Part shown: positions 843 through 6,797 of the stretch, in pieces
Layout of the letters: each line of letters begins with the position of its first letter
Numbering within the stretch: position 1 is the stretch's first letter
Assembly (NCBI GenBank): GCA_001787755.1
Contig: MFYJ01000002.1
Coordinates: 1 to 59,345 of the forward strand
Length of the DNA: 59,345 nucleotides
Reading direction: 5' to 3'
Source of the DNA: Candidatus Peribacteria bacterium RIFOXYB1_FULL_54_35
GTDB taxonomy: Bacteria > Patescibacteriota > Gracilibacteria > Peribacterales > Peribacteraceae
Made by a program: the position numbers and the translations under genes
Notes under the pieces: model-generated
Database searches by the model: none
What the model was told of the DNA's origin: nothing
What the model saw: only the letters and a program-made list of their open reading frames with translations

Positions 843-3326
843 CTACCCAGCCACGCGATTCTTCGCACTTCTCGTGCTCTCTATCACTTCCACCAGTGAA
901 AAGGAAATCGCCTCGGCATCGCCTCCCTCCTCCTGCAATACGCGCTGGAGAGGGAGCGTTGCAGGGAGAACAACCTGCTGCATCCGTTCCGGCTCCTCCG
1001 TGCTCTCTCGTTCTTCCTCCGCAGACTGGAGTGCTCTCTCACCCCTCCCAAACAGCAGAGAGGGCACGGCGAAGAGGAGCTTTCTGCTCTGCCGCGTCTT
1101 CTTCTCTAACCCGTCGAAAAGACCGCTCTCTTTGCTCTGCAGAGAATCTTGTGATCTGCCCTCCCCCACATACTCACGTATCCCCGCATGGACATCTGAT
1201 CCGCTGCCTTCCCTGGAAACGACAGGCACCGCCATGACAGGACGTTCTCCCTCCTCTGCATACACACTCCCATGGGACGAACCGTAGACCAGAGGGGCAT
1301 TGGCAACTGCATGTCCTTCCTGTGGCACAGGCTCTTGCTGCCTCTGTTCCTCCTCCTGACTGCGTTTCTTTGACTCTTCCCTCTCCCTCCGAATGTGCTG
1401 CAGCGCAAGAAAGAACGGAATCCAGAGAAGCCAGCGCAACCGGGGCAGAACCCTGAGAAATCTTGGTGATCTGCTGGCGAGTACGCTGAACCTCCGCACG
1501 AGCTCCCTCAGCACCCCTGCAATGAAGCGGAGTGCGGGCATGAACGGTTTGAGTACCATGCGCAATCCCCTCGTCACCAACGAATACAGTTGCTTCAGCA
1601 TTCGGCCGATCACTGAGAGTACCCGTGCGAGCACCGGGAACGTGCGGAGGAGAGACCGGAAAAGCTTTGCAACCGCTCCCAGCGCACGACCGAAGAGCTT
1701 CGCAACCGCACCCAAAGCGTGACCCAGCAGAGAGAGCACCTTCTTTCCAAAGCGGACAACGAATGCCCCGATGCGACCGAGCACGGGGAATTTCTTCACG
1801 AGAAATTTGAGGAATTTCCCGAGGAGTGAAAAGAGCTTTCCCATCAGCCTGAATACAGGACCAAGCACACGACCCAATGCCTTGAAGACAGTTTTGAGGA
1901 GCATGCCGAGCAAACGGATCACTGGCGCAAAGAGTTTCCTGAGGATCTTTCCCACGCTTCTCAGCAACTTCATGAACAGAGCAAGGGGCTTGGAAAACAG
2001 TGTGCGAAGCAAGCGGAACACTTGTTTGAAGAGCGTACCGATAGCTTTCATGAACGGCCTCAGTAATGCAGAGAGTGCTTTCCACACTGCCTTGAATACA
2101 TTCCCGAAAAGAGAGAAGAACTTCTTCAGCACTCCGCCGAGCAACCGCAGGACCGGAGCAAGGAGCTTCATGAGCGCTTTGATCAGTTTGCCAATACTCT
2201 TGAATACCAGAGAGAGTGCTTTCGAGAGCACCTTCCAGAGAGGCTTGAGTACAGCCATGACAATTCTGCCGATGGCCTTCAATGCTGTCTTGAGCACACC
2301 CCACACAGCTCTGAGCAGTTTCAAAACAGCTTTCAGCGCTACCCTGAGAGCATTCCATACCGTCTTCAGGGCCGTCTTGAGGAGCTTCGCTGCCGTCCTG
2401 AGGATGCCTTTGAAGAGCTTTGCGATCCAGCGCAACGCCGTCCTCACCAACCTGAGCGCTGCGTTGAGTATCCGCGCAATGCCCTTCACTGCTGCGCGCA
2501 GAATCTTCATCACCGACTTGAGGAGAGAGGTGATCAGCTTCAGAAGCCCCCTGAAAGCTTTGACGATCGCCCTGAGCAGCGCATTCAGAGTCTTGATGGG
2601 AGACCGGAGAGCCTTCAAGATTCCTTTGAGCATCTTCCAGAGCATCCGGAGTAATGCCTTTAAGGTCTTAATGGGAGACTTGATTGCTTTCCACAGCGCC
2701 TTCAGTGCCTTGCCCAAAAACTTCAGGAGCTTCACTGCAGTCTTCAGCAGAGATCTGAGAAGCTTGAGAGCGGACTTAAGAACAATCTTCAGAAGCTTTG
2801 CGAGCGCCTTCAGCGCTGTTTTGATGAACTTCACCACCACTTTGAGAGCGGTCTTCAGTGCCTTCACGATGACCTGAAATGCGGTCTTCAAAAGTTTTCC
2901 CGCCGCCTTCAGAGCAGCCTTGAGCAGTTTCCCGAGAACAGAGAGAACTCTCTTCAGTAATCCCCATATGGGAGCAAGCAGTTTGCCAAGCAACCGAAAG
3001 AGTCCTTTGAACACCTTCCCGATCACTTTGAACAATCCCTTCACGAGAGGCCGCAGAATTTCGGAAGTGAGCAGTCTCCACAAGCCGTACAGGAGGAACC
3101 CGGCGAGAGCGACGACGAGAACGACGCCCAGAGCTGCCAAAATAATTGGAATGAGAAAGATGGCGGCAGCCAGAAGAACAACGGCAACGGGAATGGTGAT
3201 GAGCATGCCGAGGAGGTTCGATTCCCCTTTCGCATCTTCGTCCATATCACCGGTCGTGAAGAGAGCCCAGAACATTGCGATAGCCCCAATGCCCGTGGCG
3301 ATGGCGGTGATGGAGAGATTTTCCAT
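843..3326 (-). CDS. Giant Lys/Leu protein made of 11-residue amphipathic repeats
   Basis: An 827-residue protein of unknown family. Residues 1-23 and about 40-83 are hydrophobic membrane segments. Residues about 95-600 are a long run of Leu, Ala, Val, Phe, Lys and Arg with almost no acidic residues. From residue 132 the basic residues fall at positions 1, 4 and 8 of an 11-residue repeat for about seven repeats with hardly an exception (units such as GKLLKAALKAA, VKALKTALKVV and VKFIKTALKAL), then the register drifts. A motif (K/R)SPIKTL occurs twice, 25 residues apart. Near residue 630 is a last hydrophobic patch, followed by a charged tail of about 190 residues with many Glu and Gln. An 11-residue period with a narrow basic face is typical of helices lying on membranes or lipid droplets (synuclein, perilipin and apolipoprotein types). 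Membrane binding is inferred. The open frame and lack of interruptions argue for a real gene. Confidence 0.8.
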   Translation of the reverse strand: MENLSITAIATGIGAIAMFWALFTTGDMDEDAKGESNLLGMLITIPVAVVLLAAAIFLIPIILAALGVVLVVALAGFLLYGLWRLLTSEILRPLVKGLFKVIGKVFKGLFRLLGKLLAPIWGLLKRVLSVLGKLLKAALKAAGKLLKTAFQVIVKALKTALKVVVKFIKTALKALAKLLKIVLKSALKLLRSLLKTAVKLLKFLGKALKALWKAIKSPIKTLKALLRMLWKMLKGILKALRSPIKTLNALLRAIVKAFRGLLKLITSLLKSVMKILRAAVKGIARILNAALRLVRTALRWIAKLFKGILRTAAKLLKTALKTVWNALRVALKAVLKLLRAVWGVLKTALKAIGRIVMAVLKPLWKVLSKALSLVFKSIGKLIKALMKLLAPVLRLLGGVLKKFFSLFGNVFKAVWKALSALLRPFMKAIGTLFKQVFRLLRTLFSKPLALFMKLLRSVGKILRKLFAPVIRLLGMLLKTVFKALGRVLGPVFRLMGKLFSLLGKFLKFLVKKFPVLGRIGAFVVRFGKKVLSLLGHALGAVAKLFGRALGAVAKLFRSLLRTFPVLARVLSVIGRMLKQLYSLVTRGLRMVLKPFMPALRFIAGVLRELVRRFSVLASRSPRFLRVLPRLRWLLWIPFFLALQHIRREREESKKRSQEEEQRQQEPVPQEGHAVANAPLVYGSSHGSVYAEEGERPVMAVPVVSREGSGSDVHAGIREYVGEGRSQDSLQSKESGLFDGLEKKTRQSRKLLFAVPSLLFGRGERALQSAEEERESTEEPERMQQVVLPATLPLQRVLQEEGGDAEAISFSLVEVIESTRSAKNRVAG

Positions 3327-3470: not shown

Positions 3471-5153
3471 TCAGGCGCCGTTTTTCAGCTCTAATCTCTG
3501 CAAAATTTCACTCACCTCCGCATCCTCCGGATCGAGTTCCAGCACCCTCCGGTACGACCCGACCGCCTCCTCAATGTTCCCCTGCACCTCGTACGCTGCT
3601 CCAAGGTTGTAGTGGACGAAGGTGGAGACAGGATCCAGATCCCGCGCCTGCTTCAGGTGGCCGATGGCGCGCGGGAGGTCGCCCGCACGCATCTCGAGCA
3701 CACCCAGATTCACGAGCGTCGGCACATCGTCAGGACGGTTCTTGAGCGCGTCGCGGTACGCCCGCATCGCTTCGAGCGTCTGCCCCGCGGCACTGTAGAG
3801 CTGCCCGAGGTTGTAGGAAGCCTGGCTGTTGGGACGGATGGCGAGAGACTGCAGGTAGTGCTGCAGTGCTTCTTCCTCCTTCCCTTCCCGGTACCGCAGG
3901 CTCCCGAGGTTATTGTGGGCGAGATGGGAATTGGGGTAGTGCTCAAGCACATTCGTAAACAGTGTTTCCGAGTTCTCCCACGTGAGCGACTGCGCGTACG
4001 CCTGGAAGGAGAAGAGGACAACAAGCACAGCAATGAGCCCCTGTACAATCTGCGCGCGTTTATGAAGAAGACGGTGGAGCAGCAGAGCCGCAAGGAAGAA
4101 TGCCGCAATACTCGGAAGGTACGTGTAGCGGTCCGAAGCGAAGTAGATGTCTTTGAGGAGATCCTTCCCTCTGGCGAAGTTACTGAAGGTCGGGGCAACC
4201 GTGATGAGGAAGAAGAGCCACGCGAAGAGGATCTCACGCGTCTTCCTGCTGCTCTTCCACGCGAGGATGGTGATGGCAATAACGAGGAAAAATGGAACAA
4301 GGAGACCGATGTTTGTGAGCGATGGAGGCTCGGTGTACGGGTACAGCACAGAGAGACCTGCGGGGAGGAGGAGCTTCCCGAGGTAGAAGACGACGGCCTT
4401 AGATCCTATGAGGAGCTTCTCTGCAACGAGCTCGTCACTGCCATACTTGCCTCCGAGCGCAATGACCCCAAAGAGGATGGAGAGCACAAAGAACGGCAGC
4501 TTCTCCCTGAGGTTCGCCCTGTCAATCTTCCTCCCCTCCCGCCAGTCGAGGAGCAGAAGAATGAGAGGAAGCGTGATCGCGATGACCTTGGAGAGAAGTG
4601 CGAGCAGGAGCGCGAGGACACTATAGCGGTACAGACGCTTCTCTCCTCCCGCACGGAACAGCTGGTACGCGATGAGTGAGAGGAGAAAGAAGCACGCCGC
4701 CTGCACATCCTTGCGCGAGCTCGCCCACACCACCGCTTCAGTATGCAGCGGATGGACTGCGAAGAGCAGCGCCGTGACTGCCGCCACCCACCGCCTGCCA
4801 GTGAGCAGCAGCACAAACCACGCCACCAGTGCAGAATTCAGCAGGTGGAAAGCGAGATTTTCAAGGTGATACAGGAAAGGATGCAATCCCACAAACAGGT
4901 GATCAAGCTGATAGCCGACCAGCGTGAGGGGGATGTAGAGCTCAGGATCGTAACTGGTGAATGCCTCTTTGATGGTTGCCGGCGTGAAGGAGTGGACGAT
5001 GGGGTTCTCCACGATGAGCAGCTTGTCATCCCAGTCCACAAATCCGAACCCGAGCGAACGCCCGTAGACAAGGAGCAGCAGAATCCCCAGGAGCCCGAGA
5101 GTCGTGAGAGCCTGCTTCTGCGATGGGATGAATGCTTTTGGCACGAGCTGCAT
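3471..5153 (-). CDS. GT-C-type membrane protein with C-terminal TPR repeats
   Basis: A 560-residue polytopic membrane protein resembling the GT-C/TMTC-like group (lipid-linked sugar-dependent protein glycosyltransferases). The first luminal loop carries FVDWDD, the position of the catalytic Asp in GT-C enzymes, and a later loop carries HPLHTEAVVWASSRKD, very close to the conserved TMTC HP(I/L)HTEAV motif. About ten hydrophobic segments span residues 15-390. Residues about 405-555 are four to five TPR units (LAHNNLGSL, ASYNLGQLY, TLVNLGVLE, VHYNLGAAY). A paralogue sits at 47460-49325. It probably glycosylates exported or surface proteins such as the SLH proteins nearby. Substrate and sugar are unknown. 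Confidence 0.75.
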   Translation of the reverse strand: MQLVPKAFIPSQKQALTTLGLLGILLLLVYGRSLGFGFVDWDDKLLIVENPIVHSFTPATIKEAFTSYDPELYIPLTLVGYQLDHLFVGLHPFLYHLENLAFHLLNSALVAWFVLLLTGRRWVAAVTALLFAVHPLHTEAVVWASSRKDVQAACFFLLSLIAYQLFRAGGEKRLYRYSVLALLLALLSKVIAITLPLILLLLDWREGRKIDRANLREKLPFFVLSILFGVIALGGKYGSDELVAEKLLIGSKAVVFYLGKLLLPAGLSVLYPYTEPPSLTNIGLLVPFFLVIAITILAWKSSRKTREILFAWLFFLITVAPTFSNFARGKDLLKDIYFASDRYTYLPSIAAFFLAALLLHRLLHKRAQIVQGLIAVLVVLFSFQAYAQSLTWENSETLFTNVLEHYPNSHLAHNNLGSLRYREGKEEEALQHYLQSLAIRPNSQASYNLGQLYSAAGQTLEAMRAYRDALKNRPDDVPTLVNLGVLEMRAGDLPRAIGHLKQARDLDPVSTFVHYNLGAAYEVQGNIEEAVGSYRRVLELDPEDAEVSEILQRLELKNGA

Positions 5154-5345: not shown

Positions 5346-6797
5346 CTAATAGAGGTAGAGCGTCGCAGAGCTCGGCGAGGCCAGCGTCGCAGCGGTAGGA
5401 CTCTGCAGCACCAGGTTGATAGCTTCGCCGCCATCGGAGGCGAGATCTTCCAGCACTTCCACCACGAAAACTTTCTTCATTTCCCCCTGACGGAATGTGA
5501 GGATGCCCTCAGCCGCTTTGTAGTCGCTGTTGATCTGGGCAGTCCCGCCGGAAGTCTTGTACTGCACCGTTGCCTGCCCGGCAGCCCCCCCCTGGCGCAG
5601 CACCGCTATATCCTTGTGCCCCTCGGATTCCAGCACCTCGTACTCCGATTCGGTAAAGCGGAACGCACCGGAACCAAAGGCCCCCACCTCGTCGTCAAAG
5701 ATGGTAAGCAGGGAAGTCATGAACTGCTCGTCCAGCACCGCACCTCCCGTAGGAGTAGTGAGCGTAAGATTCACCGTCTTGTTCCCGCCGATGTCGTTGT
5801 TGTCATCGAGGGTGACAGTGAACGTCTTCTCCATCTCCCCATCGGCAAAGCTCAGCGTGCCGCTTGTCTTCGTGTATTCCGTGCCGTTCCTCGCCGTCCC
5901 GTCTGACATGTTGTACCCCACACTCACCGATCCCTTGGTTCCTCCTGTGCGCTGCACGTAAATAGTGATGCTCTCCCAGCTCTCTCTGGCCATGTAGGCC
6001 ACCGCGCTGTAGCGGAATGTCCCCTGCTCCGGCCCGCTCTCCACGGCAGCTGTGCTGCTGGAGCTCGCTGTCTCATCATCCTGAATCGTGAACACAGAAA
6101 CCTTGGGGTCTATGATCTCCGCCCCGCCCGTCGCATTGGAGAGCTCCAGCGTGAACGTCTCAGTCCCCTCCTGGTCCGCGTCATTCAGCAGCTTCACCTG
6201 GAATGTCTTGCTTGTGTCCCCGTCCTGGAAAAGCAGAGTTCCTTCCTGTGCCTCAAAGTCCAGGCCTCCCGATGCCGTACCGCTGACAAGCTTATAGTCC
6301 ACGGTGGCAATACCTTCATTCCCTCCCGTCCGAACAATACTCACCGATGTCTCTCCGTCCTCCTCACCGTGACTGTACGCATTGGTGGTGAAGCGGAACT
6401 TGCCATGCGCATTCGGGGCAGTGGAAGAGACCTGCGCGCTGCTGCTACTGCTGCTCACGGAAGAGGAACTGCGCGAACTGCTCGAGGACCTGCTCCGGGC
6501 ACTGCTGCTGCTCCCCCCCGTTTCAATGCCTAAAATCTCGTTGCGGAGGCGCTGCATCATCACGGCTGCCTGTCCGCGCGTCAGCCCTTCGTCCGGCTTG
6601 AAGGTGCCGTCACCGAACCCGGTGATGATGCCGAGGCCGTACATCTCCCCCACTGCGCTGTCGTAGTACGCACCGAGCGGCACGTCGGGAAATATGGAGG
6701 AACCGGCCCGCGTCGCACCGAGTGAGGTACCGACAATGCCGAGAGTGAGACCTACGGCGAACGAACCAACGGAGAAAGACCTGAGAGAATTTTTCAT
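5346..6797 (-). CDS. Surface protein: SLH domain, Ser-rich linker, three Calx-beta domains
   Basis: A 483-residue exported protein. Residues 1-30 form a signal peptide. Residues about 35-90 are one S-layer-homology unit (FPDVPLGAYYDSAVGEM, then GIITGFGDGTFKPDEGLTRGQA). Residues about 95-128 are a nearly pure Ser/Arg linker, probably an extended and possibly glycosylated spacer. Three Calx-beta-type beta-sandwich repeats follow. Each has the pattern of a YxxxE start, a (V/T)xYxxxxGTA core, GTLxFxxGxxxKxFxV and a closing acidic calcium-type loop (NDADQEGTE, DDNNDIGGN, EDLASDGGE). The expected role is calcium-dependent adhesion or S-layer structure. It is divergent to groES, with the word palindrome at 6878-6942 between them. 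Confidence 0.85.
   Translation of the reverse strand: MKNSLRSFSVGSFAVGLTLGIVGTSLGATRAGSSIFPDVPLGAYYDSAVGEMYGLGIITGFGDGTFKPDEGLTRGQAAVMMQRLRNEILGIETGGSSSSARSRSSSSSRSSSSVSSSSSSAQVSSTAPNAHGKFRFTTNAYSHGEEDGETSVSIVRTGGNEGIATVDYKLVSGTASGGLDFEAQEGTLLFQDGDTSKTFQVKLLNDADQEGTETFTLELSNATGGAEIIDPKVSVFTIQDDETASSSSTAAVESGPEQGTFRYSAVAYMARESWESITIYVQRTGGTKGSVSVGYNMSDGTARNGTEYTKTSGTLSFADGEMEKTFTVTLDDNNDIGGNKTVNLTLTTPTGGAVLDEQFMTSLLTIFDDEVGAFGSGAFRFTESEYEVLESEGHKDIAVLRQGGAAGQATVQYKTSGGTAQINSDYKAAEGILTFRQGEMKKVFVVEVLEDLASDGGEAINLVLQSPTAATLASPSSATLYLY

Follow-up and report, generated by a model that had tools for sequence, protein, structure and literature searches.

The stretch of DNA analysed here (the window) comprises 59,345 nucleotides of contig MFYJ01000002.1 from Candidatus Peribacteria bacterium RIFOXYB1_FULL_54_35. 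Its minus strand carries an open reading frame of 827 codons, which opens with an ATG at position 3326, runs down to position 843 and codes for a protein dominated by a giant amphipathic helix. An earlier note made from the letters of this DNA had placed the protein at the correct positions, to which the minus strand has now to be added. The protein comprises an N-terminal membrane anchor, a long polycationic segment that we term the belt, a short hydrophobic patch and an acidic tail ending in a predicted helix (Table 1).

Table 1. Features of the belt gene and its upstream neighbor (positions in the window)
Feature	Positions	Strand	Basis or remark
827-aa ORF, giant amphipathic-helix protein	843..3326	-	ORF call; conserved family
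Membrane anchor, residues 1-95: TM1 (3-24), acidic loop DMDEDAKGE, 48-residue uncharged second hydrophobic stretch, conserved P46 and P60	3042..3326	-	alignments, loop charge, stretch lengths, hydropathy, AF2 (pLDDT 72)
Polycationic amphipathic belt, residues 96-620, net charge +116	1467..3041	-	Fourier analysis, helical wheel, moment 0.60
Seven 11-mers, residues 132-208, basic residues at three fixed positions, one break (Q151)	2703..2933	-	
Short Pro-containing hydrophobic patch WLLWIPFFLALQHI followed by RRER, residues 632-645	1392..1433	-	similar patch and R/K cluster in all non-g33 relatives
Acidic, predicted disordered tail, residues 646-827	846..1391	-	composition; AF2
C-terminal predicted helix, residues 804-826, site of the family C-terminal motif; degenerate in the window's genus: SFSLVEVIESTRSAKNRV	849..917	-	
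Multi-TM and TPR protein (context only)	3471..5153	-	syntenic upstream neighbor in the same-genus genome G002

Other open reading frames overlap the gene on both strands (e.g. 1771-2877 on the plus and 1174-2358 on the minus strand) and were taken as by-products of its biased codons; an antisense match within its own genome was spurious. For the anchor codons of three genomes of the related genus g33 we obtained dN values of 0.10-0.14 and dS values of 0.9-1.6, and the resulting dN/dS of about 0.06-0.15 places the gene under purifying selection, which supports its being real. Outside the anchor the protein evolves fast, since the flanking genes in g33 are 84-93% identical as against about 44-53% for the belt-family protein.

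Composition and geometry of the belt

The belt contains 117 lysines and arginines (22% of ~525 residues), 59% of its residues are A, I, L, M, V, F, W or Y, and a single glutamate and no aspartate interrupt it, exactly as the earlier note had it when it reported acidic residues to be almost absent ahead of the acidic tail. The Fourier power of the K/R positions peaks at 43 at an angle of 99.0 degrees (3.64 residues per turn), whereas none of 500 shuffles exceeds ~12; for hydrophobicity the peak lies at that angle too, with a power of 69 versus ~21 at most in the shuffles, so that both peaks stand three to four times above the best of the shuffled sequences. The Fourier check that the note had proposed for a 100-degree and an 11/3 period thus gives a helical period of 99.0 degrees, and the polycationic helix of 500 residues that it described grows to about 525. 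Within the seven consecutive 11-mers the basic residues occupy positions 2, 5 and 9 counted from residue 132 (equivalently 1, 4 and 8 from residue 133). Beyond residue 208 the phase drifts, the angle of best fit varying locally between 98 and 101 degrees, and hence the belt, which totals about 48 repeat-lengths, combines 11/3 and 18/5 geometry rather than following a single strict hendecad. The note had read both the seven repeats with their one break and the ensuing drift correctly; of its likening to the perilipin, synuclein and apolipoprotein class the type of amphipathicity holds, whereas the 11/3 period is strict only for the seven repeats.

On a local helical wheel 97% of the K/R residues lie no more than 90 degrees to either side of the local basic center, with G, S, T, W and A at the borders of the basic face and L, I, V and F opposite. 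The mean hydrophobic moment is 0.60 versus 0.23 for shuffled sequence (Fauchere-Pliska scale, 100 degrees, 18-residue windows). On the Wimley-White octanol scale 5% of the 19-residue belt windows lie below -2 kcal/mol, and the segments that are membrane-inserting on the Wimley-White scales are residues 3-27, 34-96 and 618-650; by this measure the belt is of the interfacial and not of the transmembrane type. Of its 13 prolines, three lie in residues 96-360 and ten in residues 361-620, suggesting that the second half is probably kinked. Because prolines are commoner there, a single unbroken helix of 79 nm is an upper limit. In the structure prediction advocated by the note, AF2 yielded a low-confidence model for the whole protein (pLDDT 46.6), and the continuity of the helix therefore rests on sequence, while residues 1-130 were modeled with a pLDDT of 72 and helices at 2-24, 33-87 (55 residues) and 92-129.

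Internal duplication may help to make belts: residues 200-229 and 225-254 are identical at 18 of 30 positions, which is only just above shuffles (14-17), and one relative (genome G009) displays near-copies of one segment. The autocorrelation of the belt tracks the helix period, and no inverted repeats of at least 18 nt were found in its DNA.

A helix of this kind might alternatively belong to a homo-oligomeric bundle or rod, anchored in the membrane by its N-terminus, in which hydrophobic faces pack as they do in phage tape-measure proteins. The pattern does resemble that of tape-measure proteins and AF2 draws long straight helices; however, at about 220-240 degrees the hydrophobic arc is broad for soluble packing of this kind, salt bridges would lack acidic partners, and length is unconstrained across the relatives described below, all of which renders such a bundle rather improbable in our estimate.

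A lineage-restricted family with constant ends

A search with the protein turned up relatives within the same GTDB family. Searches of the genomes of this family with N-terminal profiles (A2, A4 and A7) and C-terminal profiles (A5 and A6) recovered members in 15 of 74 genomes, distributed over 8 of 40 genera. No convincing members were found elsewhere in the class (353 genomes of the class searched), and when 380 genomes from across the phylum were searched with the belt alone, family members were all that was retrieved at E <= 1e-6; as judged from these sequence searches the family is lineage-restricted. The C-terminal profile, built without N-terminal data, recovered the proteins of G008 and G211 (E 4e-5), whose reading frames start with the same kind of anchor; these anchors were later added to profile A7. 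Among the marginal C-terminal matches (E 6e-4 to 0.009), those inspected were unrelated or tiny ORFs.

Common to the members are TM1, a loop that is usually acidic, another hydrophobic stretch, in which most conserve two prolines, and a zone of net positive charge. Within the 150 residues that follow residue 80 the net charge is +16 to +42 in each of the 15. The loop is net acidic in most members, as scored by script or, for the topology of G008 and G211, judged by eye. Most also possess the C-terminal motif L..(M/L)R.IGW.TR..(L/M); this is degenerate in the window's genus and in genus g18, where we identify it mainly by its position. Outside g33, every member additionally has a short hydrophobic patch, often with proline, and an R/K cluster after it.

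By contrast, the middle of the protein is variable. As delineated by script, the belt is 553 residues long in the window protein (or 525 under stricter bounds), 372 in G001, 253 in G015, 206 before a frameshift in G009, 132-141 in G019 and G227 and 57 in G002, with shorter basic stretches in G008 and G211; members from g33 have no belt, and basic charged or disordered linkers occur instead. In every belt-bearing member the K/R periodicity, near 97-101 degrees, exceeds the 95% level of shuffles. The ortholog search suggested by the note, in which a lack of relatives with a preserved period would have counted against its reading, thus found the helical period kept in G001, G009, G015, G019 and G227, but the belt itself fails as a family hallmark, its length running from 0 to 525 residues among relatives. 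By these alignments the constant parts are the N-terminal membrane anchor and the short C-terminal motif, on either side of a middle that varies yet is always net positive.

Two copies are irregular. In the G009 ortholog the frameshift (L025 near 5985) is an assembly error or real, and the other frame carries the patch, the acidic tail and the end of the protein. In G196 an in-frame TAG lies inside a recognizable N-terminal anchor (L034:6590-6700), and might reflect a decayed copy or a sequencing error.

Profile matches to phage tape-measure proteins

PHROG tape-measure profiles match the whole protein with E-values down to 5e-26 and the belt with values down to 1e-29, which raises the question of whether it is a remnant or homolog of such a protein. 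As a control, belt residues were permuted within the basic, hydrophobic and small/polar classes. The two class-preserving shuffles scored 1.5e-23 and 9e-22 on the same profiles and one full shuffle gave no match, indicating that the profiles recognize a pattern of residue classes; since the shuffles score nearly as well, the matches are no evidence of descent. Moreover, the flanking genes are cellular, no tail genes occur among the neighbors of the window gene or its relatives, and among phages, viral contigs and plasmids nothing matches the N-terminus. Tape-measure ancestry is already largely refuted by these observations and we give it hardly any credence.

The weak Pfam and NCBIfam matches (Collagen_mid, Baculo_PEP_C, Phasin_2 and MCE) all fell below the curated cut-offs in low-complexity sequence (e.g. 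Phasin_2, 17.1 bits versus 24.9), and the Pfam scan returned no match to PspA_IM30 (the PspA-Vipp1 family) and, at E <= 1, none to perilipin, synuclein or apolipoprotein. Matches in PDB obtained with phmmer were to designed helical repeats and tape-measure proteins, with E-values of about 0.005 or worse.

Genomic context, presence and absence

Neighbors of the gene in the window code for GroES/EL, a Calx-beta/SLH protein and the TPR membrane protein, and those of its relatives include HisRS-like and GyrB-like genes. The gene order of the window (Calx-beta, TPR, belt) recurs in G002, with a belt a tenth as long. There, the counterpart of the multi-TM protein, which carries its TPRs at the C-terminus, is 62% identical, and that of the Calx-beta protein (window 5346-6797, minus strand), which combines an SLH domain, three Calx-beta domains and a Ser-rich linker and is likely attached to the surface layer, is 67% identical. 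A similar TPR gene lies near an empty site (L104:683-2458). Directly downstream of the belt gene, positions 314-733 of the minus strand code for a 139-residue protein with one N-terminal hydrophobic segment, for which there is no Pfam match and which was not found beside orthologs of the belt gene. A search with the neighboring gene of G015 in its genus gave no match, a result that is uninformative.

Two genomes of genus g18 carry the gene, whereas three lack it at the syntenic site (yidD, tRNA-Gly). These empty sites indicate that the belt-family gene is accessory and dispensable.

In three lineages a tRNA gene is located no more than about 250 bp from the belt-family gene, namely tRNA-Gly in g18, tRNA-His in g33 and tRNA-Leu in G002, and in G015 the distance to tRNA-Gly is about 550 bp (L027:8157-8231, L030:8004-8078, L029:68-144, L031:5054-5130, L034:5702-5778 and L024:5852-5938). 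These tRNA genes are possible integration hot spots, an observation made post hoc. Two large serine recombinases from different genera (L030:8067-9692 and L032:4842-6464), 58% identical, end inside tRNA-Gly(TCC); together with a conserved partner gene (L030:9692-11041 and L032:3350-4711), in both genomes adjoining the belt gene, they look like an integrative element that uses this tRNA.

Proposed topology and function

The AF2 model of residues 1-130 is compatible with either two or three membrane passes and does not decide between them; we favor a two-TM anchor because the basic amphipathic stretch of G211 directly follows TM2. Under the positive-inside rule, the acidic loop together with the net positive charge that follows the anchor would place the N-terminus inside, the loop outside and the belt and tail in the cytoplasm. 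This orientation weighs against an exported or surface-exposed protein that attacks or contacts the membrane of a host or neighboring cell, one of the roles raised by the earlier note. Cationic amphipathic helices are indeed membrane-active, the gene is patchy and fast evolving, and the lineage consists of small, presumed host-associated bacteria; but we recognized no signal peptide, secretion signature or secretion partner, nor any Pfam or NCBIfam toxin match, and consider this role very unlikely. Nothing points to the lipid storage that the note had also entertained, and membrane scaffolding, another of its suggestions, endures as the best broad class.

Within that class, a reading to which we would give an even chance is a membrane-lining tether. 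The N-terminal anchor would insert into the cytoplasmic membrane, and the polycationic belt, by virtue of its chemistry, would lie in the plane of the anionic inner leaflet, with L, I, V and F in the acyl chains and K and R snorkelling to the head groups; were it helical throughout, it would span up to 75-80 nm. The belt would end with the short Pro-kinked patch, and the disordered tail would display the conserved C-terminal helix, whose conservation suggests that it binds a putative cytoplasmic partner. Belt length, adjustable in evolution, would tune the strength or area of membrane hold or bending, a role in curvature or division being speculative.

As beltless relatives keep both ends, lying flat on lipid cannot be the only essential function of the family. 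All members have in common the net positive charge that follows the anchor, whereas amphipathicity is not shared by all, and this opens the alternative that a membrane-anchored polycation retains DNA, RNA or ribosomes at the membrane, with amphipathicity an elaboration in some species. It is hardest to dismiss for the beltless forms with their basic, charged or disordered linkers, and in g18 the gene adjoins yidD, which codes for a membrane insertion factor; yet yidD also occurs at the site from which the gene is absent, so the link may be incidental, and the strict helical face of the belt forms, with their high hydrophobic content, would be needless for binding nucleic acid. We judge this alternative unlikely. 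Since the beltless members retain both ends and the positive charge, the core job of the family is probably to act as a tether, through a basic linker anchored in the membrane, with the giant belt as an extreme form that would add lipid binding and perhaps curvature.

Relationship to known systems

Amphipathic helices of giant size have been described on eukaryotic lipid droplets. By its physics the nearest analog of the belt appears to be perilipin-4, though not as a relative: human Plin4 (968 residues) has a very long amphipathic helix of the 11-residue type and modular length, along which it binds the lipid surface (PMC5889406). It differs in its near-identical 33-mers, with about +1 net charge each, its low hydrophobicity and its location on eukaryotic lipid droplets (PMC5889406), whereas the bacterial, TM-anchored belt is shorter, has degenerate repeats, is far more hydrophobic and is purely cationic. 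The moment of the belt exceeds those published for ApoA-I (0.39), synuclein (0.30) and Plin4 (0.257) and is near that of the artificial liposome-tubulating Hel 13-5 (0.69), as far as scale and windowing, which are only approximately equal, permit comparison (Table 1 of PMC5889406). The 11-mers of alpha-synuclein and ApoA-I share the 3-11 helix periodicity with residues 132-208 of the belt only, and are much shorter and mix acidic with basic residues. Phage tape-measure proteins (PHROG tail families) likewise contain long hydrophobic-basic amphipathic helical stretches, a likeness confined to the level of pattern. PARCEL repeats of Mollicutes and others are also variable-number amphipathic repeats in membrane-linked accessory proteins of patchy distribution, but are 25 residues long and encoded by palindromic DNA (PMC2996958). 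No bacterial amphipathic helix of such length was found in the literature, structures and family libraries searched, an absence that is not proof, and searches combining candidate-phyla names with amphipathic helices found no description in the literature covered, most subscription journals being outside its scope.

Tentatively, then, the family might constitute a previously undescribed, accessory and lineage-restricted bacterial membrane-lining system: both ends of the protein would be fixed, and evolution would have tuned the cationic helix lying in-plane between them to lengths from nil to about 75-80 nm, thereby setting membrane coverage or curvature in ultra-small cells. The family, in which one membrane-binding helix occurs naturally in a series of lengths between constant ends, would allow a direct test of how helix length and hydrophobicity set membrane binding, and would offer a foothold on membrane organization in the ultra-small bacteria of the candidate phyla.
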